The translations under genes were made by a program, and so were the position numbers. DNA of 11,338 nt from Caldithrix sp. GTDB taxonomy: Bacteria; Zhuqueibacterota; Zhuqueibacteria; Oceanimicrobiales; Oceanimicrobiaceae. Below, piece after piece: positions 789 through 10,811 of this stretch. The first letter of the stretch is position 1. Each line of letters opens with the position of its first letter. Location: contig SMXE01000028.1 of assembly GCA_004357015.1 (NCBI GenBank), positions 1 to 11,338 of the forward strand. The letters are read 5' to 3'. A model generated the notes under the pieces. It worked only from the letters and a program-made list of their open reading frames with translations. It was not told where the DNA came from and did not search any database.

Positions 789-1607
789 ATGAGAATGTTT
801 AAAAATGTTTTGTTTATGGCCCTGGTCGCGGGGTTGTCACTCGAATTGGTAGTGCCCCAGACCGGATACACACAGAAGAAAGGCAAAGGTGATCTCGAAG
901 ACTTTGCCGACGACTTTGGTGAGGAAGAAGATTCCGACAGCGGTGACTCTGAAGAGGCGATTGGATTCTTCATTGAGGTCATGTTCCACCATCTGGTGCA
1001 CATGCCACAACTCTGGGGTGGCACGCCGGAAACCGAAAATGGCCCGTATCCTTCCTTCCCTTATGCCGGCGGCGACGGTTTCATGGCAACATCAAACCAG
1101 CACCGCAGTTACTTCTTCACCACCGAATTCAACTATCACTACATCAACGAAGACCTGCGAAGCTATATCGTGAAATGGGAAACACAATTCATGCGCCGCA
1201 GCAAACTCTCATTTGATCTGGCGGTTTATGAAGAAGACAGAATTGATGATTTTGGCTTTATTTATAAAGACCATCTGACTTTTTTTGGCTTCCGCTATGG
1301 CTACGCGCTGTTCCACTCGCCGCAAATGATTCTCAATCTCGAAGGCGGCTTGCGCGGCTTTCACCGCAACAGCGCGCACAGCGGGCCGGAGATTGCGCTG
1401 GATTTGCAGCTGTTCCCGAAGAGGCCGCTCATCCTGGAAACTGAGATCGCCGCAGCGTACGTGAGCAACGGCATGCTCTTGACAGTTGAGTCCAGCGCCG
1501 GCATTGCCATCGGAAGATTCGAAATACTCGGGGGTGTTAGAATACTAAAAAACAAATCATCCGATTTGCTCGATGGGTTTCGAGTCGGGCTGAGAGTGTG
1601 GTACTAA
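789..1607 (+). CDS. Secreted, beta-rich putative outer-membrane protein with acidic N-terminal segment
   Basis: This is a 272-residue protein starting at ATG 789. GAGG at 775-778 lies 10 bases upstream; ATG 795 is a possible alternative. Residues 1-29 look like a Sec signal peptide (basic MRMFK start, hydrophobic core 7-22, cleavage probably near 25-29). A strongly acidic low-complexity segment follows at about 35-57 (D/E/S/G). From about 80 to the end the chain alternates polar and hydrophobic residues with many aromatics, and it ends in L-R-V-W-Y. A final strand with a C-terminal aromatic residue is typical of outer-membrane barrels recognised by the BAM complex. I do not recognise the family. 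The barrel assignment is inferred from pattern only; a periplasmic beta protein is the alternative. A short putative lipoprotein gene follows after a hairpin repeat. Confidence 0.7.
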   Translation: MRMFKNVLFMALVAGLSLELVVPQTGYTQKKGKGDLEDFADDFGEEEDSDSGDSEEAIGFFIEVMFHHLVHMPQLWGGTPETENGPYPSFPYAGGDGFMATSNQHRSYFFTTEFNYHYINEDLRSYIVKWETQFMRRSKLSFDLAVYEEDRIDDFGFIYKDHLTFFGFRYGYALFHSPQMILNLEGGLRGFHRNSAHSGPEIALDLQLFPKRPLILETEIAAAYVSNGMLLTVESSAGIAIGRFEILGGVRILKNKSSDLLDGFRVGLRVWY

Positions 1608-2002: not shown

Positions 2003-2095
2003 TTGGCCGGCACTCCTTCTGAAACGAGATTTCGCACTGCCAGGACTGTTGACAATCTTCATGCAGGATGTTACATTGAGGCGACATCCAACTAC

Positions 2096-2105: not shown

Positions 2106-5100
2106 ATGAAATTCGTCGCCGACGTCCACTTGCATTCATACTTCTCCCGCGCAACCAGCAAGAATCTTAACCTTGAATACCTCAACAAATGGGCGCAGCT
2201 CAAAGGCGTTAACGTCGTGGGGACAGGGGATATCGCGCACCCGGGCTGGCTCGCTGAAATGCGAGAAAAACTTCAGCCGGCCGAGGACGGACTGTTCAAG
2301 CTGAAAGCGGAGTATGCCAAACCGGTTCAGGCAGAAGTGTTCAAGGCCTGCCGGGCGCCTGTGCGTTTCATGTTAGCCGGCGAAATCAGCAACATCTACA
2401 AAAAGAACGACAAAGTCCGCAAGATTCACAATGTGGTTTTCATGCCGTCGTTCGACGCTCTGGAGAAGTTTCAGACGACGCTGGAAAAAATCGGCAACAT
2501 TCGTTCGGACGGCCGCCCAATTCTCGGCCTGGATTCCCGCGACTTGCTGGAAATCGTGCTGGAAACCGACGCGCAGGGGTACCTCATCCCGGCGCACATC
2601 TGGACGCCGTGGTTTGCACTGCTCGGCTCCATGTCCGGCTTCGATTCCGTTGAAGAGTGCTTCGACGATCTGACCGAACATATCTTCGCCCTCGAAACCG
2701 GCTTGTCGTCCGACCCTCCAATGAACTGGCGGCTTTCCATGCTGGACCGCTACACGCTGGTCTCCAACTCAGACGCGCATTCGCCGCAAAAATTGGCGCG
2801 GGAAGCGAACGTATTTGACACAGACCTTTCCTATCCCGCTATTTTTGCGGCGCTCAAAAGCGGCGACCCGGAAAAGTTTCTCGGCACTATCGAATTTTTC
2901 CCAGAGGAAGGCAAGTACCACTACGATGGCCACCGGAAATGCGGCGTGCGCTGGGACCCAAAGGAAACGCTCGCAAACGACTGCATCTGCACCGTATGCG
3001 GCAAGAAAGTCACCGTCGGTGTGATGCACCGCGTGGAGCGGCTGGCCGACCGCGAGCTGGGTGAAAAGCCCGAAAAATACCGTCCTTACAAAAGCCTGGT
3101 GCCGTTGCCTGAAATACTTGCCCAAATTCACGGAGTGGGCGTGAACACCAAACGTGTCAACGAAGGGTTTGAATTTCTGCTCTCCAGACTGGGTTCCGAA
3201 CTTCACATTCTGCAGGAGGCCCCGCTTGAAGATGTAGAAAAGCTGGGTGGCGCTATGGTGGCCGAAGGCATTCGCCGGATGCGGGCAGGAGACATCCAAA
3301 TCGCGGCTGGTTTTGATGGCGAGTTCGGTAGCATTCATTTGTTCGAGGAAGCAGAACGCGAATCGTTTTCAACGCAGCTTGGCTTCTTTATCGAAAACGT
3401 GAAAAGAAACGCCACCGACGCGCCAGCCGAAACAGAGAGCAAAGTGTCCGATACATCTCTTAGCTACAAACGGGCAAGCAAGCCAATGCCCGAACCGCTA
3501 CCTGACAAGCCACAGCAGTCTGCCACTGTTGCCGGCAGCAACGAGGCCATTCCGAATGACTTGAACAGCCAGCAGAAGCACGCAGTTGAACTCGACGCCG
3601 GCGCGCTGCTCATTGTCGCCGGACCCGGAACTGGCAAAACACGCACCCTGACACACCGCATTTCGCATCTGATTATAAGGAAAAATGTCCCGGCCGCAAA
3701 CATCCTGGCAGTGACCTTCACCAACAAAGCCGCTGAAGAAATGCAGCAGCGGCTCACCGGCCTGTTGGGTGAGCCGGTGGTGAAAGAAATCTCGGTTTCC
3801 ACTTTTCACTCCGTGTGTGTTCACATTCTTTCAACCGATGGCGAAGGAATTGGCATTCCGCCGGAATTTTCAATTTGTTCAGATAAAGACCGGACGATTC
3901 TGCTTCGAAAAGCTGCACCGACATATCACCGGAATAGAACAAGCGAGATTCTCGAAGAAATTTCCCTCGCCAAAAGCAACCTACTCTCTCCAGAACAAGT
4001 TGAGGCCGATAACGCATTAGCAAATTCAAGGGAACTGGCGGCAGTCTATCAGAATTACCAGGAACGCCTGCGCGAGAACCATTTGCTGGACTACGATGAC
4101 CTTGTTTTTGAAACGGTGAACTTATTTGAGGGGTCCCCTGAGATTCTGCAGAAATATCAGAACAAGTTCGCTGCCATTTTTGTGGATGAATATCAGGACA
4201 TCAATTTTGCACAACACCAGTTTCTGAAGCTTCTTATGGGCGCAGGATCAAACCTGTGCGCTATCGGGGATCCCGATCAGGCGATCTACGGCTTTCGTGG
4301 CGCCAACAGAGAATTCTTTCTGAGCTTTCAGGAAGATTTTCCCGACACCGCCGTCATCAATCTCAGCCAGAACTACCGTTCTACGCAGCTCATTGTGGAT
4401 GCATCTTCGCAGGTACTTGCAAAACAAAACGGCGATACCGGCAGCCAACTCTGGTCCGACGTTGTCAGCACGACCAGAATCACAACCTACTCCGCCCCGA
4501 CCGACAAAGCTGAGGCTGAGTACATCGTGCATGAAATCGAAAGGATGGTGGGAGGTACAAGCTATTTCTCCATCGATTCTGGCAGGGTTTCGGACCAGGG
4601 AAATGCGGCGGAATATTCCTTCGCAGATTTCGCTGTGCTTTACCGGACTCGATCGCAAAGCCGGCTGCTCGTGGAAGCTTTCGCAAGATCAGGAATGCCG
4701 TTCCAGACAGTGGGAGAAATGTCCTTTTGGGAAACACCGGAAATCGACAAACTTTTGAACTATCTTCGGTTCCTTTGCAGCCCGGAGGCGGGCTTATATC
4801 TTGAGAAGATCCTGAAGCAAAACCAACGCTCGCTTGGCTCTGCCACGATAGAGCGAATCGTGGAGCACTCGGAGGCTACAAGACAGTCGATCCGTGAGGT
4901 CATGGAGAACGCCGAAACAATTAAAATCTCCGAAAAGCAGCGCCAAACCCTGCAACTATTTTCTGCAAAGCTGGAGGCGTTGAAAGCAAATCCTAACTCA
5001 AATTCAATTCCGGAGCTTATCGAATCCATAGCCCGCTCATTCGACACGGACATGGCACCAGACACGCTGCATCAACTGCTCACGCACGCTGAGCCTTTTG

Positions 5101-5510
5101 GTAAGGATATCAGAAAATTTCTACGCGCCACAGTGTTGAGAAGCGAAACGGACGAATATGCACCGCGCTCGGACAAAGTAGCTCTAATGACGTTGCACGC
5201 TGCCAAAGGCCTGGAATTCCCGGTTGTCTTCATCATCGGCTGCGAAGAGAATCTTATCCCTTTCCGGCGGGAAGGCAAGCAGACCGACATTGACGAGGAA
5301 CGCAGATTGCTCTATGTCGGCATGACCCGCGCACAGCAGCGGCTTATCATGACCAGCGCCAAAACGCGTGTGGTTTTTGGAAAGAAATTACGCCCGGAAC
5401 CTTCACGATTTCTCAAAGATATAGAGGCAGCCTTAAAAGAGGTTACGAAAAGGCCATTCAGGAAAAACCGTAAAGAAGGAGAAAGTTCTTCTCAAATGGA
5501 CTTGTTTTGA
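2106..5510 (+). CDS. EndoQ-like PHP endonuclease fused to UvrD/Rep-type SF1 helicase, with C-terminal clamp-binding motif
   Basis: This 1134-residue protein starts at ATG 2106, where the EndoQ-typical opening MKFVADVHLHS begins. Residues 1 to about 430 match the EndoQ/TIGR00375 family. Metal-site candidates in the PHP domain are D6-x-H8-x-H10, G39-T-G-D42, H45, E93, H108, H164 and D223-A-H225. The zinc site is C279, C293, C295, C298, followed by HRVERLADR. EndoQ nicks DNA 5' of deaminated bases and abasic sites. A low-complexity linker spans about 435-483. The helicase has a Q-motif (LNSQQ 486-490), Walker A GPGTGKT 506-512, Walker B VDEYQD 693-698, GDPDQAIYGFRGA 721-733, NYRS 756-759, TLHAAKGLEF 1029-1038 and LLYVGMTRA 1068-1076. 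The 2B region seems shorter than in UvrD/PcrA. The chain ends in Q-M-D-L-F (1130-1134), close to the beta-clamp consensus QL(S/D)LF. All key residues are present, so both halves should be active. The repair role is inferred. Confidence 0.93.
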   Translation: MKFVADVHLHSYFSRATSKNLNLEYLNKWAQLKGVNVVGTGDIAHPGWLAEMREKLQPAEDGLFKLKAEYAKPVQAEVFKACRAPVRFMLAGEISNIYKKNDKVRKIHNVVFMPSFDALEKFQTTLEKIGNIRSDGRPILGLDSRDLLEIVLETDAQGYLIPAHIWTPWFALLGSMSGFDSVEECFDDLTEHIFALETGLSSDPPMNWRLSMLDRYTLVSNSDAHSPQKLAREANVFDTDLSYPAIFAALKSGDPEKFLGTIEFFPEEGKYHYDGHRKCGVRWDPKETLANDCICTVCGKKVTVGVMHRVERLADRELGEKPEKYRPYKSLVPLPEILAQIHGVGVNTKRVNEGFEFLLSRLGSELHILQEAPLEDVEKLGGAMVAEGIRRMRAGDIQIAAGFDGEFGSIHLFEEAERESFSTQLGFFIENVKRNATDAPAETESKVSDTSLSYKRASKPMPEPLPDKPQQSATVAGSNEAIPNDLNSQQKHAVELDAGALLIVAGPGTGKTRTLTHRISHLIIRKNVPAANILAVTFTNKAAEEMQQRLTGLLGEPVVKEISVSTFHSVCVHILSTDGEGIGIPPEFSICSDKDRTILLRKAAPTYHRNRTSEILEEISLAKSNLLSPEQVEADNALANSRELAAVYQNYQERLRENHLLDYDDLVFETVNLFEGSPEILQKYQNKFAAIFVDEYQDINFAQHQFLKLLMGAGSNLCAIGDPDQAIYGFRGANREFFLSFQEDFPDTAVINLSQNYRSTQLIVDASSQVLAKQNGDTGSQLWSDVVSTTRITTYSAPTDKAEAEYIVHEIERMVGGTSYFSIDSGRVSDQGNAAEYSFADFAVLYRTRSQSRLLVEAFARSGMPFQTVGEMSFWETPEIDKLLNYLRFLCSPEAGLYLEKILKQNQRSLGSATIERIVEHSEATRQSIREVMENAETIKISEKQRQTLQLFSAKLEALKANPNSNSIPELIESIARSFDTDMAPDTLHQLLTHAEPFGKDIRKFLRATVLRSETDEYAPRSDKVALMTLHAAKGLEFPVVFIIGCEENLIPFRREGKQTDIDEERRLLYVGMTRAQQRLIMTSAKTRVVFGKKLRPEPSRFLKDIEAALKEVTKRPFRKNRKEGESSSQMDLF

Positions 5511-5530
5511 GTTATGTCTGACTCAAAACA
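5503..5530 (+). repeat. Perfect 10-bp inverted repeat overlapping the fusion gene stop codon
   Basis: TGTTTTGAGT (5503-5512) and ACTCAAAACA (5521-5530) are exact reverse complements around an 8-base loop. The left arm includes the TGA stop 5508-5510. A GC-rich stretch follows rather than a T-run, so it is not a standard intrinsic terminator. It could protect the mRNA 3' end or cause pausing. On the sequence alone only the symmetry is certain. Confidence 0.5.
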
Positions 5531-5664
5531 CGGCGGTCGTCGGCTGGAGTCGAAGGAATAACCGCGTAATCTTTGCAGTATCTAATTGTAGGCTCAAGGA
5601 AAGCGTTTACAACTACGAACCTACTGATAACGGATGTGGACAAGCAGAAACGTTCAATAGGCTA

Positions 5665-6897
5665 ATGCTTTATTTCACCAGGCTAAAAAACTTCTTACAC
5701 CGCCGGATGCAATACAGCCTTTCACATCGCCAGTCGCTCGCCCTGTCTGTTGCAGCTCACGTCTCGCTGGCGGCATTCTTGGGTACAATTCAGCTTGGAA
5801 AAATTACCGGACTGCCTGTGCCCAAAACCGAGAAAGAACTGGAAGTTGAGCTTGATTTGATTGTTGAACAGGAAACAGAATTCGAGAAAGACTCAAACGC
5901 CGAGGATTTCACGAATCAGGACCATTCTTACAACACGGAAGATCTCCTCGACCCAAGCGCCTCCGCTACGAACGGTACAAAAAGAAATATTGAAGGGAAT
6001 ACGACTGTCCAGAGACAACGCCTGCTGCTGGCTTCACTCAGCACTTTTGACCAGATGAAGTCGCGGTTTAATTTCATGGTAAGACAGGTGCCGGCGGATT
6101 CGGTCGGGGCATTTTCGCCAATTCAGGGAATCGCGCCGGACACGAAGTCCATCACTGAAGCGTTGAACAGCGGTCTCCTAAAAGTAAACGGATTTGGCCG
6201 AGGCAATTGTCCCGCAAAGGGTGGAATAAATATTCTGGGACTTGGCCACCCGCAGGGCTTTTCCGAGCAAATGACGGCAACCGTGGCGATGCTGACAGAT
6301 GCCCGCACGTACGACGACATGGTGAAAGCTGCCAATCGGTTTGAAAGCCTGGCTGAAAGGTATCCTAATAAGTGGCTGGCAGCCTTTTGGACTGGCTACG
6401 TATACTCGCGATGCGCCATTTTTTCCCTGCAAAGTACAAGATCACACAAATACATGCACCACCTTAACACTGCACAGTCATATACAGACAAAGCATGGAA
6501 AGCGCACGATGCAAGAACGATGAATGACCAATCCGCCTTGCATTCCTTGCAGGCGAATATCTACAACTTGCGCGCCCGACAGTGCCGAATCCTGCCTGAT
6601 GATGAGAAGGAAAGTGAATTCACACAATTGTACGTTGAAACAGTTGCAAAAGCGGAGGATGCAAATCCAGACAACGCGATGGTTCTGGCGCTGAAAGCAG
6701 TTATGATGTTGAACAATCCCGTAACCCAAGAAGAAGGAAGGCGCATCCTCAGGTTAACCCTGGCGAGATTCGAGGCGCTGGAGGCTTTGAGCAGCTTGCG
6801 ACCCAGGTTTGATCGAAAATGGATGAATTTTTGGCTAAGTGAATACGGCCTTGTGAACCAGACGGAGCCTGGCCACAGGTCAAAATCTTCAATGTAG
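5665..6897 (+). CDS. TonB-type N-terminal anchor fused to a TPR-like helical domain; unknown function
   Basis: This is a 410-residue protein starting at ATG 5665; ATG 5707 (Met15) is an alternative, and neither has a strong ribosome binding site. After a basic cytoplasmic tail, one membrane segment spans about 24-44 and contains S28-V-A-A-H32. This is the S-x3-H arrangement of TonB, where the Ser/His pair contacts ExbB-ExbD. As in TonB, a short proline-containing stretch (LPVP) and a beta-like segment (EVELDLI) follow. An acidic, Asn/Ser-rich linker runs about 68-118. Next come a Gly-rich patch at 175-198 (GFGRG and GLGHPQGF) and, from about 213 to 395, paired helices with TPR-like features (RYPNKWLAAFWTGYVY, NPDNAMVLALKAVMML). 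No TonB C-terminal domain is visible. Family members usually transmit inner-membrane energy to periplasmic or outer-membrane partners. No ExbB/ExbD genes lie in the window. A terminator follows the stop closely. Confidence 0.75.
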   Translation: MLYFTRLKNFLHRRMQYSLSHRQSLALSVAAHVSLAAFLGTIQLGKITGLPVPKTEKELEVELDLIVEQETEFEKDSNAEDFTNQDHSYNTEDLLDPSASATNGTKRNIEGNTTVQRQRLLLASLSTFDQMKSRFNFMVRQVPADSVGAFSPIQGIAPDTKSITEALNSGLLKVNGFGRGNCPAKGGINILGLGHPQGFSEQMTATVAMLTDARTYDDMVKAANRFESLAERYPNKWLAAFWTGYVYSRCAIFSLQSTRSHKYMHHLNTAQSYTDKAWKAHDARTMNDQSALHSLQANIYNLRARQCRILPDDEKESEFTQLYVETVAKAEDANPDNAMVLALKAVMMLNNPVTQEEGRRILRLTLARFEALEALSSLRPRFDRKWMNFWLSEYGLVNQTEPGHRSKSSM

Positions 6898-6905
6898 TGA
6901 AAAGA

Positions 6906-6934
6906 AAAGGGGTGAAATTTACACCCTTTTTTTG
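6906..6934. terminator. Intrinsic terminator, probably bidirectional
   Basis: GGGTG (6911-6915) pairs with CACCC (6923-6927) around a 7-base AT loop. The stem extends outward through G-T and A-T pairs into A6906-6909 and T6929-6932. The T-run at 6928-6934 terminates the + strand gene ending at 6897. On the - strand the hairpin is followed by CTTTTCTTTT, suitable for the convergent TPR gene ending at 6961. Confidence 0.8.
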
Positions 6935-6960
6935 TTAAGTCGCTGTACCAATGCGCCCCA

Positions 6961-8178
6961 CTAGTTTAATTTTTCCAACTGGTCGAGAATCGCACGCACT
7001 TTCTGCGCCCGCTCATCGTCTTCAGAAACCAGCGCAAGGAATTTTCGATACTCCGTCAGCGCTTCCTCGACCTCGCCTTTTTTGTGCAACAGGACTGCCA
7101 GGTTGAAATGGCTAAAAGCGTGATCGGGATTCACGAGACTCTCTTCCAGATAGGCATTGATGGCCTCATCTATCTTGCCTTGCTGGTCAAAGATCTGGCC
7201 GATTTGAAAGTTCACCAGAGGTCTCACCGGGTCGAGCTTCAGAGCTGTGTCATATTCGTTCAGTGCAGCAGTCGTGTCGCCGTGCAGGTAGCGTGCCTGG
7301 GCCAGATCTATATAACCCTCCGGCAGTGTGGAATCGATTTTCGTCACTTTCTCAAACATCGAAATCGCCTTGTCGATGGATTTTAGATCGATGAACACGA
7401 ATCCCATGTTCAGGTAGGCCTCAATATAACGTTCGTCAATCTGGGTCGCTCTGCGGAAAAAGCGAACGGCTCTTTCGTACTCCTGCTGCTGTCGGTACAG
7501 TTTGCCCAATTCATTGTAAGCTTCCTTATTCTGTTTGTTGAGCTTGACAGCTCCCTCGAAATTGGTCTTAGCCTTTTCAAGGTCACCTTGGTCGCGGTAA
7601 AGCATGCCAAGCGCAACATAAGCGTTATCCATGGTGGAATCTGCTTTCACGGCATTTTCCAAATGCTCAAAAGCCTGATCTTTTCGATCCAGCTTCTCAA
7701 CGACATACGCAAGATTGTAATGCGCCTCAGCATAATCTTCGCGCTGTTCCACAGCCTTCTGCAGGTTCGTCAATGCGGATTCGTATTCTTCCTTGCCTAT
7801 AAAAGCAAGTCCCATGTTAAACTCTATGTCCGCTTCATCGTAACCTGGCTCTTCAGTGACCGGCTCCAACTGTGAGGCCTTCTGTAATTTACTCATCGCC
7901 TCGTCGAAATCTTTCGTCTTAAGGTAGGTCAAACCCAGCACGTAGTATGCTTCAGCAAAATCAACATTAAAATCAATCGCCTGTTTGAGAAGATAAATCG
8001 CCTGAATGTAATCACCTTTCTTGTAAAGCTCCGCACCTTGCACGTAAAGCCCGATGGTCCTCTCTTCAAAAGTTCGCCCGGGTGGGGTCACCGCACATGA
8101 ATGCACCAGAAAAAGAAACAGTAACAGAGCGACAATAATGACGCCGGAAGAACCTGTCTGATTTGCACGCTTTAGCAT
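6961..8178 (-). CDS. TPR-repeat lipoprotein
   Basis: This 405-residue protein starts at the ATG complementary to 8176-8178, with AAGGA 6 bases upstream. Residues 1-28 form a lipoprotein signal peptide: basic MLKR, hydrophobic core GVIIVALLLFLFLV, then V-H-S-C28 as lipobox. The mature protein should be acylated at Cys28 and anchored to a membrane facing the periplasm. From about 42 to 384 it is almost entirely TPR, with about ten units: 42-72, 76-106, 116-148 (after a short acidic insert), 151-183, 184-217, 218-251, 252-285, 286-318, 320-352 and 354-384. The units show the usual G/A-Y-x-x-x-G-x-Y-x-x-A-I pattern and D/N-P ends. Such solenoids are scaffolds. Its position 69 bases after the MMPL transporter gene on the same strand suggests the transporter or its substrate-handling complex as partner, which is inference. 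Confidence 0.9.
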   Translation of the reverse strand: MLKRANQTGSSGVIIVALLLFLFLVHSCAVTPPGRTFEERTIGLYVQGAELYKKGDYIQAIYLLKQAIDFNVDFAEAYYVLGLTYLKTKDFDEAMSKLQKASQLEPVTEEPGYDEADIEFNMGLAFIGKEEYESALTNLQKAVEQREDYAEAHYNLAYVVEKLDRKDQAFEHLENAVKADSTMDNAYVALGMLYRDQGDLEKAKTNFEGAVKLNKQNKEAYNELGKLYRQQQEYERAVRFFRRATQIDERYIEAYLNMGFVFIDLKSIDKAISMFEKVTKIDSTLPEGYIDLAQARYLHGDTTAALNEYDTALKLDPVRPLVNFQIGQIFDQQGKIDEAINAYLEESLVNPDHAFSHFNLAVLLHKKGEVEEALTEYRKFLALVSEDDERAQKVRAILDQLEKLN

Positions 8179-8247: not shown

Positions 8248-10683
8248 TTAGTGACTTCGTTCTGTTCCCGCATTAATCGATGCAGAGCCAGAAGCATCGC
8301 CGGTCCCTCTAGTCTCGAGAAGCTGCAGAATTGCGGGAAGAATCAAGATGGCCGTAAGGTAGGTCAGGCCGATTCCAATCAGAGCCAATTTGCCTATGGA
8401 GTTAAGTCCGGGATGATGTGCTACAATAAGGCCTGAATAGCCGACAATTGTGGTCAAAGTCGTCATCGAGATTGCAAGTCCGGTGTTCTTCACAACATGG
8501 ATAAGTGAGCCAGGACCTTCCTCTTTGTATCGATGATAAATGTGGACGCCATTATCAACCCCGATGCCAATTACGCTCGGTATCACAACGATGTTGAAGA
8601 GATTCCACTTAGTACCCATGAGATACATAGTGCCAATCATCCACAGCACACCCAGCAGCAACGGCGACAACACAAGCAATGTCGCCTTCAGATCGCGAAA
8701 ATCAAGCAAGACAATCAGGAAAACAACGAAAAATGTCAGAATCACTGCCCACTTCCCTTCACTGATCATGATTGTGAGCATATCGGCCAAAATAATGTTC
8801 GAGCTAGATGCATGGTAAACCTTGCCGGAAGCAGTGGTGATCTTTCCAACATCATCACGAAAGTTGATGGCGTTGCGTCCATTTTTTAGGGCGACACTTG
8901 GATAGATAAATACAAAGTTGCCAATGTCTCCTTTCTTATTAATGAACTGTCGCTTATCCTTCTCGGGAAACTCCTCCCACGTAAAGGGTTTATCAACCTC
9001 AAGGTATCGCTTAAATTCATCCAGCCTCTCCTTGTCTTCACCCTTGAGAACGCCGTCGGCTTCGTCCGCTATGAACTCACGAATCTCCTTAATCTTGACC
9101 AACTTCTCTGGCTGATCATCGGGAACCAGAGAGTAGATGCTGCGGACAGTTCTTATCGTAGGCGTAAGCGTATCGCTTACCATGATTTCCTTGATCCTTT
9201 CGACGATTTCGTTTATCTCATCCTTAGAATCTGCCAGAACCACCGCCGGAGACTCAGACAGTTTAAAAACACCTCTTGTTTTCTGACTAACAGTTTTTCG
9301 TTCTTTGGTTATTGCTCTGAGATTTGTGAAGTCATATTCGAATTGCACCTGACCGGCGCCATACACCGAGTACAAAGTCAAACCTAACCCAAGAAACACG
9401 ACAGGCATAGCATAACGAAACTTTCGTTTTTCATAGTGTTGTGTTTTGCCATCCACTTGCTTAATCTTAAGCAGATTCCTTTTCTCAAAAAGGGTGATGA
9501 AGGCCGGCAATACAACCACCATTGCCACCAATGCAAACAGTATTCCAACGCCTGAAATGAAACCCAAGTCAGAAAATCCCTTAAAATCCATTAGTGTTAA
9601 AGAGAAAAAGGCCGCGGAAGTCGTTACTGCGGTGGTAGCCAAGGCTCTACCGGTTTGAGTAACCATATTGTGGATAGACCGCTCAAAACTCATCCCGCTA
9701 CGCCGGCATTCACTGTAGCGTGCGAAGGCATGTATGCCATAATCAATGCCGAGACCGAATAAAATAACAAAAAGAAATCCGGTAATAGTATTAAGGTTTC
9801 CGACCACCAGGTAGGTCAGTCCAAAAGTCCAGGCCAACGAGCAAGCAAGTGTAAAGACGATCAAAAGCGCACCAGTCAACCTCCGGAAATATAGTATGAT
9901 GATCAAGATTACCCCAGTCAGCCCATAAAGAGCTGTTCCAAAAATATCCTTCTTGACGACCTGGTATTCATCAAGTCGATTCTTGAAATTTCCGCCATAG
10001 TAAACTTTGATATCCGGGGCAAATCGGGCAAGATTTGCTTGTTCGACGAGGTCCATAACCTCATCGACCATTTTTTGCACAAAACTCAGGTTCGTGTTGG
10101 TTTGAGAGGGGAAAATTTTGATAACGAGGACGGTACTATCTGCATTCGTGTAGTATTCAGAAGGCAGCTTGTCGCGATATTTTTTCTCCCACTTCAGCAA
10201 CGAATCGTCGGCTTCATCCTCTTCCTCATCCCCAAAAAGATCGTCAACGAATAACGGGTTTAGTTTCTGCTTTTCCGCAGCGACCTTTTCCTCAACAGCG
10301 ATTTGGAGAGAATCTAATTCGTCCATATTGAGCAGGAGCAAAGCATTCTTGTTATAAAATTCTATATCATTCTTGTAGTCAACATAATTGACATACGCTT
10401 GAGATTGTAGCTCGCTGACAAGATAGTCGGCACAACGCTTCAACGCCTCATAATCCTGCGATTCCATTACAATACGAAGGTTGCCTACTCCTCCGACCTC
10501 CTTCTTGATGCGGTTCAGGGCCTGGACACTTTCGAAACTTTCAGGGAGAAGTTCTGCGAGATTGCTTTCCAGTGAGAGCTTGGACGCGTAGTAGCCGCCC
10601 ACGGCCGTCAGGAGAACCGCTACGACAATTATGGGATTGGCAAACTTGACTATAAATTGAGAGACGCCTTTGTTCTCAGGCAT
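8248..10683 (-). CDS. MMPL/RND-family transporter (HpnN-like architecture)
   Basis: The product is an inner-membrane transporter of 811 residues from ATG 10683, which has GGAAAGAGAAGG just upstream. ATG 10698 (no ribosome binding site) and TTG 10743 are weaker in-frame starts. The protein has the duplicated RND/MMPL plan. TM1 is at about 17-34. A large periplasmic domain runs to about 245, followed by a five-helix bundle at about 248-400 with G-L-G-I-D314-Y-G. TM7 is at about 425-443, a second periplasmic domain runs to about 640, and the second bundle at about 645-788 contains G-I-G-V-D710-N-G. The membrane aspartates are the expected proton-relay positions. A highly acidic patch (GDEEEDEADD, 151-160) sits in the first periplasmic domain. 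Relatives export lipids, including hopanoids, or other hydrophobic molecules; the substrate here cannot be read from sequence. The C-terminal tail is Gly/Ser-rich. The TPR lipoprotein gene follows. Confidence 0.9.
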   Translation of the reverse strand: MPENKGVSQFIVKFANPIIVVAVLLTAVGGYYASKLSLESNLAELLPESFESVQALNRIKKEVGGVGNLRIVMESQDYEALKRCADYLVSELQSQAYVNYVDYKNDIEFYNKNALLLLNMDELDSLQIAVEEKVAAEKQKLNPLFVDDLFGDEEEDEADDSLLKWEKKYRDKLPSEYYTNADSTVLVIKIFPSQTNTNLSFVQKMVDEVMDLVEQANLARFAPDIKVYYGGNFKNRLDEYQVVKKDIFGTALYGLTGVILIIILYFRRLTGALLIVFTLACSLAWTFGLTYLVVGNLNTITGFLFVILFGLGIDYGIHAFARYSECRRSGMSFERSIHNMVTQTGRALATTAVTTSAAFFSLTLMDFKGFSDLGFISGVGILFALVAMVVVLPAFITLFEKRNLLKIKQVDGKTQHYEKRKFRYAMPVVFLGLGLTLYSVYGAGQVQFEYDFTNLRAITKERKTVSQKTRGVFKLSESPAVVLADSKDEINEIVERIKEIMVSDTLTPTIRTVRSIYSLVPDDQPEKLVKIKEIREFIADEADGVLKGEDKERLDEFKRYLEVDKPFTWEEFPEKDKRQFINKKGDIGNFVFIYPSVALKNGRNAINFRDDVGKITTASGKVYHASSSNIILADMLTIMISEGKWAVILTFFVVFLIVLLDFRDLKATLLVLSPLLLGVLWMIGTMYLMGTKWNLFNIVVIPSVIGIGVDNGVHIYHRYKEEGPGSLIHVVKNTGLAISMTTLTTIVGYSGLIVAHHPGLNSIGKLALIGIGLTYLTAILILPAILQLLETRGTGDASGSASINAGTERSH

Positions 10684-10811
10684 ACCTTCTCTTTCCATCA
10701 ACCGATTGTGGGATGTATTTAGTGGATTTGGGGTGAATAACAACTTTGGAGCTATGGTTCTTTGCTTCTTTAACCAATGTGAGAAGCTAAAAATCCCAAT
10801 GCCCGCGAGCC

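Follow-up and report, generated by a model that had tools for sequence, protein, structure and literature searches.

In silico analysis of an 11,338-nucleotide stretch of DNA from Caldithrix sp. (contig SMXE01000028.1, referred to below as the window) revealed a gene whose product joins, in a single polypeptide, an EndoQ-type lesion endonuclease and a UvrD-type helicase of superfamily 1A (SF1A). This identity is well supported by domain matches, sequence matches in the Protein Data Bank (PDB), a residue map and an EndoQ profile search, in agreement with the initial annotation of the window. With moderate confidence, the protein is proposed to incise and unwind DNA by itself in an alternative, nick-initiated excision repair of deaminated and abasic sites, while docked on the sliding clamp. 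The parts considered are the following, in coordinates of the window:

2106..5510, plus strand: EndoQ-UvrD fusion coding sequence, a single open reading frame without internal stop (1134 amino acids plus the stop)
2106..3353, plus strand: EndoQ domain, residues 1-416, with PHP, zinc and C-terminal helical parts (PDB sequence search, profile search, TIGR00375)
2121..2780, plus strand: PHP catalytic set and lesion pocket, D6, H8, H10, D42, E93, H108, H164, G199, S201, D223 and H225 (map to Pyrococcus furiosus EndoQ)
2931..2999, plus strand: zinc site H276, C279, C295 and C298 (same map; conservation in fusions)
3375..3389, plus strand: internal clamp-binding-type motif QLGFF, residues 424-428 (alignment counterpart of QLSLF, the C-terminus of standalone bacterial EndoQ)
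3390..3551, plus strand: linker, residues 429-482, predicted to be disordered (predicted local distance difference test, pLDDT, <50 over most of 422-480; variable in the alignment)
3552..5453, plus strand: SF1A UvrD/PcrA-type helicase, residues 483-1116 (Pfam, NCBIfam, PDB sequence search)
4743..5174, plus strand: 2B-subdomain region, residues 880-1023, 144 amino acids by alignment count, with boundaries set by the analyst (subdomain name and role from PMC13238157)
5493..5507, plus strand: C-terminal clamp-binding-type motif QMDLF, residues 1130-1134 (sequence; conserved in fusions)

The NCBIfam model TIGR00375 matched residues 5-410 (E 1.3e-50), and the Pfam families UvrD-helicase and UvrD_C matched residues 486-746 (E 2.3e-83) and 964-1086 (E 1.1e-59). 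In the PDB sequence search, residues 5-416 matched EndoQ (5zb8, 7k30 and 7k31; E 4.8e-50 to 2.6e-49) and residues 483-1116 matched PcrA (1pjr; E 1.7e-125), with UvrD1 and UvrD close behind. A profile built from 81 EndoQ domains and compared with 177635 distinct PDB sequences found only three distinct sequences at E <=0.01, all of them EndoQ (best match E 5e-80); the EndoQ homology is whole-length, over residues 5-416, and extends past the PHP domain. The division into two halves was read correctly at the outset, with a small correction for the helicase, which has about 630 residues and is preceded by a linker of about 54. The closest database match, possibly from the same species, is 99% identical and has 17 member sequences, and query coverage is 96-100% among the 120 matches listed in the protein database; the fusion is therefore neither a chance event nor an assembly artefact. 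The suspicion that such proteins are filed under generic helicase names was correct, the database names being “UvrD-helicase domain-containing protein”, “PcrA” or “TIGR00375 family”.

Residue conservation was followed in a set of 190 fusions, composed of 121 database proteins (query included) and 69 genome loci and containing near-duplicates (L020 and L070, for instance, are identical in the EndoQ part). In P. furiosus EndoQ, E76, H84 and H139 are the catalytic zinc ligands, and H139, G169 and S171 belong to the pocket (PMC8307549). A HMMER alignment places E76, H84, H139, G169 and S171 at E93, H108, H164, G199 and S201 of the fusion. Accordingly, the metal ligands were found (E93, H108 and H164 plus H8, H10, D223 and H225), and the pocket residues H164, G199 and S201 are invariant in 190/190 fusions; each residue of the PHP set and the pocket is conserved in 187-190 of the 190, the misses being N-terminally cut rows and one H8Q. 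The zinc-finger cysteines C249, C252, C268 and C271 of the archaeal enzyme correspond to H276 (kept in 189/190 fusions) and to C279, C295 and C298 (190/190). The four-cysteine zinc site of the initial annotation is thus right in its four ligands, which occupy the family positions, and wrong in its four cysteines: the order is H-C-C-C, with His276 first, and standalone bacterial EndoQ likewise has histidine. An extra Cys293 is cysteine in merely 12/190 fusions. With 172.9 bits the fusion stays below the curated TIGR00375 cut-off of 326.6 bits, as does a standalone bacterial EndoQ (193.4 bits), and for this reason the fusion is not filed under TIGR00375; this cut-off is no definition of EndoQ activity.

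EndoQ incises 5' of the lesion, leaving a 3'-OH and a 5'-phosphate (PMC4357722), and its activity has been reported in Bacillus pumilus (PMC6202378); by homology, nicking of deaminated DNA by the fusion, and unwinding that starts at this nick, are plausible. A changed substrate of the PHP half, such as ribonucleotides, mismatches or another lesion, handled in a different excision pathway, would agree with the uracil glycosylase already present, with the position of fused and most standalone EndoQs on opposite sides of one tree branch and with histidine instead of cysteine as the first zinc ligand. Against these points stand the invariance of E93, H108, H164, G199 and S201 in 190/190 fusions and the sharing of the histidine at H276 with standalone bacterial EndoQ, and a shift of this kind is considered improbable.

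In the helicase half, all checked motif residues (Walker A and motifs II, III, IV, V and VI) are present, as in UvrD-like SF1A helicases, and K511, D694, E695, Q725, R731, R758, R1067 and R1075 are intact in 189/190 fusions. Mapping thereby confirmed the PHP metal ligands and the full set of SF1A motifs described earlier, and 186/190 fusions keep both catalytic sets (187 the seven PHP ligands, 189 the eight helicase residues); the four exceptions are P0090 (R731C), L115 (H8Q) and two N-terminally incomplete rows. The identification as a PcrA orthologue was rejected on the score, which misses the PcrA equivalog cut-off (560 vs 911 bits), on the shorter 2B region and on the missing tail. Identity to 19 PcrA-like proteins of related genomes is 33-39%. 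Past motif VI, 37-67 residues follow in the fusions (102/190 measurable) and 120-134 in PcrA (16 frames measurable), and the Tudor-like C-terminal tail, which is the RNA-polymerase-binding part of PcrA (PMC5397179), is absent from the fusions. A separate PcrA-/UvrD-like gene is present in most genomes listed among the relatives and in all four genomes of a separate check, and the own genome encodes the C-terminal 445 residues of a separate PcrA-like protein, cut by the contig end. The helicase of the fusion is therefore an additional one, and replacement of the housekeeping PcrA was likewise rejected.

According to alignment counts, the 2B region has 144 residues in the query and 159-163 in the 19 PcrA proteins; its median is 110 (93-167) in 119 near fusions and 145.5 (10-169) in 68 wider fused rows. 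Seven fusions with short frames were fetched for this region and six were measured: four of them (L167, L168, L169 and L171), chosen for their short frames, have 6 residues compared with 162 in PcrA, L170 has 110, and L173, at a contig end, 41. The four members with practically no 2B carry a QxxLF motif at or near the C-terminus. The 2B region is thus variable and often shortened, rather than uniformly reduced. In Rep this subdomain is autoinhibitory, the monomer being activated by its deletion, and its loss favours monomer unwinding (PMC13238157); it also links translocation with protein displacement (PMC6158625).

Clients of the bacterial clamp carry QxxLF as a general consensus, or the narrower QL[S/D]LF; as a dimer, the clamp offers two binding sites (PMC12309361, PMC9690074). 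Two motifs of this type have been identified in the query: QMDLF at the C-terminus (1130-1134) and the looser QLGFF (424-428), with F at position 4. The form Q[LMI]x[LM][FL] occurs within the last 15 residues of 112/121 fusions, against 4/7698 background windows of the same length, and a slightly wider form (F allowed at position 4) in 62/69 wider fusions; even with F at position 4, the C-terminal motif is absent from 19/19 PcrA-like proteins of related genomes. Among standalone EndoQs, 118/120 end in a clamp motif, and in an alignment with three genomes this terminal motif coincides with residues 424-428 of the query, for which reason the internal motif is most simply the former C-terminus of EndoQ. 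Anchored on the alignment, the internal form Qxx[LMFI][FLM] is found in 119/121 near and 54/69 wider fusions, and the strict form in 117/121 and 14/69, respectively. A C-terminal PCNA-interacting protein (PIP) box mediates the stimulation of archaeal EndoQ by PCNA, and the clamp consensus of bacterial EndoQs has already been published (PMC4858679); the literature searched gave nothing on the additional motif with which the fusion ends. Judging from its motifs, the fusion would dock on the DnaN clamp.

In the proposed mechanism the fusion (i) would dock on the DnaN sliding clamp through the C-terminal QMDLF, and possibly through the internal QLGFF too; (ii) would flip uracil, hypoxanthine, xanthine or an abasic site into the pocket of the EndoQ half and cut on the 5' side, leaving a 3'-OH; (iii) would place its 3'-5' helicase at the kinked nick on the intact strand and, as the helicase moves along this strand, displace the damaged strand, new 5' end first, as a flap with the lesion at its head; and (iv) would leave completion to a polymerase, a flap nuclease and a ligase. 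UvrD-type helicases translocate 3' to 5'. Loading is expected on the uncut strand, because travel in this direction there would peel off the lesion-bearing 5' end, whereas along the cut strand the enzyme would move away from the lesion. A published pathway model already includes a helicase that takes out the damaged piece once EndoQ and EndoV have cut (PMC4357722), and work on relatives lends support by analogy, namely the 5' cleavage by EndoQ, the clamp stimulation of archaeal EndoQ and the activation of Rep by 2B deletion. From the sequences, the proposal draws on the two complete catalytic sets, the two clamp-type motifs, the lack of the PcrA tail, the somewhat shortened 2B region, the separate PcrA-like gene, the two-gene forms with clamp-type endings and the dnaN neighbourhood of 12 loci. 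We infer in this way the lesion range of the fusion, its clamp binding, the helicase step, the loading strand and the order of steps. A more far-reaching version can be put forward only tentatively, as a rather doubtful possibility: a widespread, undescribed bacterial excision-repair pathway, tied to replication and parallel to glycosylase repair, in which the fusion would occupy both DnaN sites with its two motifs, nick deaminated or abasic sites and start unwinding immediately, by means of a helicase released in full or in part from 2B autoinhibition.

Several observations weigh against the incision-and-unwinding proposal. AlphaFold modelled the full-length protein poorly (mean pLDDT 61.2, predicted template modelling score 0.50), and no biochemistry on any EndoQ-helicase fusion was found in the literature. 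In most distant fusions, position 2 of the internal motif departs from the canonical residue (the strict form is kept in 14/69), and the query QLGFF carries G at position 3, which weakens clamp binding in E. coli (PMC12309361); reduction of 2B is not general, as seen from the median of the wider rows. A protein of the uracil-DNA glycosylase (UDG) superfamily occurs in 60/60 related genomes, which leaves the niche of the fusion uncertain, and a dnaN neighbourhood of the fusion gene, described below, is confined to one lineage. Finally, among the standalone short-frame loci L127-L165 (34 from the phylum of Desulfonema magnum and five divergent ones from that of Neglectibacter timonensis, with flanks shorter at contig ends), 38/39 have no adjacent helicase gene, the exception being L131, from which it follows that EndoQ needs no helicase. 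A rule that standalone EndoQ lies in an operon beside a helicase gene was rejected on the same count (1/39).

The frequent standalone EndoQ, mostly without a neighbouring helicase gene, also speaks for an enzyme in which EndoQ acts as in archaea and the helicase is a translocase that carries the nuclease, or clears proteins, during the survey of single-stranded or replicating DNA, the nick being left unprocessed. The lower conservation of the helicase half fits this explanation as well (mean pairwise identity among the 69 loci 38%, vs 58% for EndoQ; 400 sampled pairs). However, 189/190 fusions retain every helicase motif residue that was checked, the protein-recruitment tail of PcrA is absent, and 2B, tied to protein displacement in Rep (PMC6158625), is lost in some members, a loss that favours monomer unwinding (PMC13238157). 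This translocase function is regarded as unlikely.

The gene content of 60 related genomes at class level does not support the glycosylase bypass put forward in the initial annotation. The suggested survey for missing Ung or Nfi gave a UDG-superfamily protein in every genome and EndoV in 17/60, that is, in 12/51 with fused-type EndoQ and 5/9 others (Fisher p 0.10 for EndoV against fused type in related, non-independent genomes, labelled fused, standalone or none by the analyst's reading). On this basis, replacement of glycosylase or EndoV repair was rejected. The own genome (70% complete) encodes one UDG-superfamily protein, below the family 4 cut-offs, and gave no EndoV match; UDG is present in D. 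magnum, Moorella stamsii, N. timonensis and Eth-SRB1, with a weak EndoV match in one of the four.

The EndoQ-helicase fusion is widespread in bacteria. A scan with one genome per species returned at least 591 matching stretches, 587 of them encoding a relative; among the best 80 loci, which were kept, 61 are fused in frame, 15 unfused and 4 at a contig edge. By record titles and ranks, the fused rows carry twelve or more different phylum labels (Chloroflexota, KSB1, Thermodesulfobacteriota, Myxococcota, Gemmatimonadota, Fibrobacterota, Bacteroidota, Planctomycetota, Elusimicrobiota, Cloacimonadota, Calditrichota, Bacillota, Pseudomonadota and SAR324); as most of these genomes were assembled from metagenomes, an individual label may be in error. 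The rows of Nitrospirota (3) and Omnitrophota (5) are all unfused. Strain-named hosts of the fusion include D. magnum 4be13, M. stamsii DSM 26217 and N. timonensis SN17. The view of EndoQ as restricted to a limited set of bacteria proved too narrow: it was detected in 69/82 genomes of the window's own phylum, in 69/98 from the D. magnum phylum (frame >=900 aa in 27) and in 47/101 from the N. timonensis phylum (13 with such a frame; 30/47 divergent, E 1e-24 to 1e-52; two further genomes with merely a short N-terminal PHP match left out), or 185/281 in sum. The samples of 98 and 101 genomes were requested at 90% completeness, the actual completeness being unstated, and short EndoQ frames include genes cut by contig ends. 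Two observations concern standalone forms. At L166 (G183), a fused gene (1216 aa, 3552-7199, plus strand) and a standalone EndoQ (445 aa, 14253-15587, minus strand) lie about 7 kb apart. P0125, P0142, P0174, P0185 and P0223 are standalone EndoQs of 394-419 aa that bear the NCBI name “DNA helicase UvrD” with only PF27218 listed, likely a name transferred from the fusion.

A mobile or defence origin was rejected: no EndoQ match was found among 50,697 phage records, no plasmid record matching >80% of the fusion query and no viral contig encoding a relative. The same results bear on the idea that the protein is a nuclease-helicase for DNA ends or foreign DNA, that is, a defence or resection machine similar to Gabija or RecBCD/AddAB. 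The helicase does score against GajB and RecB/AddA models, and an antiviral role has been suggested for EndoQ (PMC8307549). The PcrA and Rep models, however, score far above RecB and AddA, hence the matches come from the UvrD fold that all of them have in common; among the six window proteins scanned, none is GajA-like or AddB-like, so that the nuclease partner which accompanies GajB in Gabija is missing there; and fused-type EndoQ is present in 51/60 class-level genomes (including copies truncated at contig ends or by frame breaks), a spread that a sporadic defence gene would not show. Such a machine is therefore regarded as very improbable.

A quick maximum-likelihood tree was built from 112 EndoQ domains. 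One of its branches, with 98% support in the Shimodaira-Hasegawa-like approximate likelihood ratio test (SH-aLRT), has all 74 fused rows on one side, together with 7 split and 7 “alone” rows, a label that includes four contig-edge loci (L053, L055, L076 and L107); the opposite side comprises the split L099 and 23 standalone rows. In a tree of the helicases, a branch with 100% support sets the 19 PcrA controls apart, and the L099 helicase groups with them (98%), while a midpoint drawing places PcrA among the fused rows; the tree is compatible with a single origin of the fused helicases and no proof of it. Read most simply, these quick trees, which lack a fixed root, would point to a single principal fusion event followed by fissions. 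The clearest cases of fission are in Omnitrophota (L052, L058, L061 and L064), where EndoQ ends directly after the clamp-type motif; in L052 a 296-aa gene of unassigned family lies between the EndoQ and helicase genes. Further two-gene forms are L099 (Nitrospirota) and L131, and L012, L098 and L011 have the appearance of broken frames. EndoQ of the two-gene forms ends in QxxLF or QLSFF, and five of their helicases (L052, L061, L064, L099 and L131) have a terminal or near-terminal clamp-type motif.

Among known systems, P. furiosus EndoQ (5zb8, 7k30) resembles the fusion over its whole length by sequence, in metal ligands, in pocket residues and in a clamp motif ending the EndoQ part (PIP in archaea); the fusion differs in its helicase, in histidine as first zinc ligand and in bacterial QxxLF-type motifs, one of them C-terminal. 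With the SF1A helicases PcrA, UvrD and Rep it shares every motif residue checked, and it differs in a variable, shortened or absent 2B, in a clamp motif instead of the Tudor-like tail, in the joined EndoQ and in its place outside the PcrA clade. Mismatch repair by the MutL endonuclease, the beta clamp and UvrD offers an analogy only, that of a clamp-tethered nickase followed by a UvrD-type helicase. In that pathway a UvrD-type helicase step follows MutL nicking. The link between MutL and the clamp has been described (PMC9690074). In contrast, the nuclease of the fusion is unrelated, lesion recognition is built in and both activities are in one chain. AddAB/RecBCD and Gabija (GajA-GajB) also couple a UvrD-type helicase to a nuclease, with nuclease folds and substrates different from those of the fusion. 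RecB bears a clamp motif too (PMC13254535). No description of an EndoQ-UvrD fusion was found in the literature, in a search that mostly missed subscription journals, so that an earlier sighting is possible, a Desulfovibrio EndoQ homologue being listed in one published figure; it is unmentioned in the available parts of PMC4357722, PMC4858679, PMC6202378, PMC8307549 and PMC11354406.

As regards gene neighbourhood, dnaN lies near the fusion in 12/80 loci (L071, L073, L074, L079, L080, L081, L082, L089, L093, L097, L112 and L126), labelled Desulfobacterales, Desulfobacteraceae, Desulfatitalea or Deltaproteobacteria, and gyrB is also near in 11; in the examples inspected dnaN is divergent and two small genes away. 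L082 has thyX above the cut-off, and L112 a thymidylate synthase-like gene below NCBIfam and above Pfam cut-offs. Such an arrangement agrees with a context of replication and uracil, though within a single lineage. Another two genes are found repeatedly in this neighbourhood, in 12 loci each, and their L074 copies have no NCBIfam match. Elsewhere, a standalone EndoQ on a contig titled Patescibacteria (L113; 1511-2845, plus strand) lies near a polymerase of PolX type that itself contains a PHP domain (4131-5900, plus strand), and a 671-aa frame of L160 (4043-6055, minus strand) has EndoQ over about 414 residues and no Pfam match, either with a possible extra domain or as an over-long frame. The remaining features of the window are:

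2049..2077, plus strand: promoter-like site TTGACA-17-TACATT with TG before the second hexamer, weak evidence (4 promoter-like sites found in the region vs a mean of 2.4 in shuffles)
789..1607, plus strand: protein without Pfam or NCBIfam match
5665..6897, plus strand: protein without Pfam or NCBIfam match, with a membrane-anchor-like start (by eye)
6961..8178, minus strand: tetratricopeptide-repeat protein with a signal-like N-terminus (by eye) and similarity to MamA and PilW models below cut-offs
8248..10743, minus strand: MMPL/RND transporter resembling HpnN, under the curated HpnN cut-off

In the literature EndoQ is presented as mainly archaeal, whereas homologues are present in the 185/281 genomes of three bacterial phyla counted above, often joined to a helicase. 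The cultured hosts D. magnum, M. stamsii and N. timonensis make the fusion testable, and naturally occurring helicases of the UvrD family in which 2B is reduced or absent allow a direct test of this subdomain as a regulatory brake. If the proposal is true, many bacteria would own a one-protein, replication-linked repair route for deaminated DNA beside their glycosylases.

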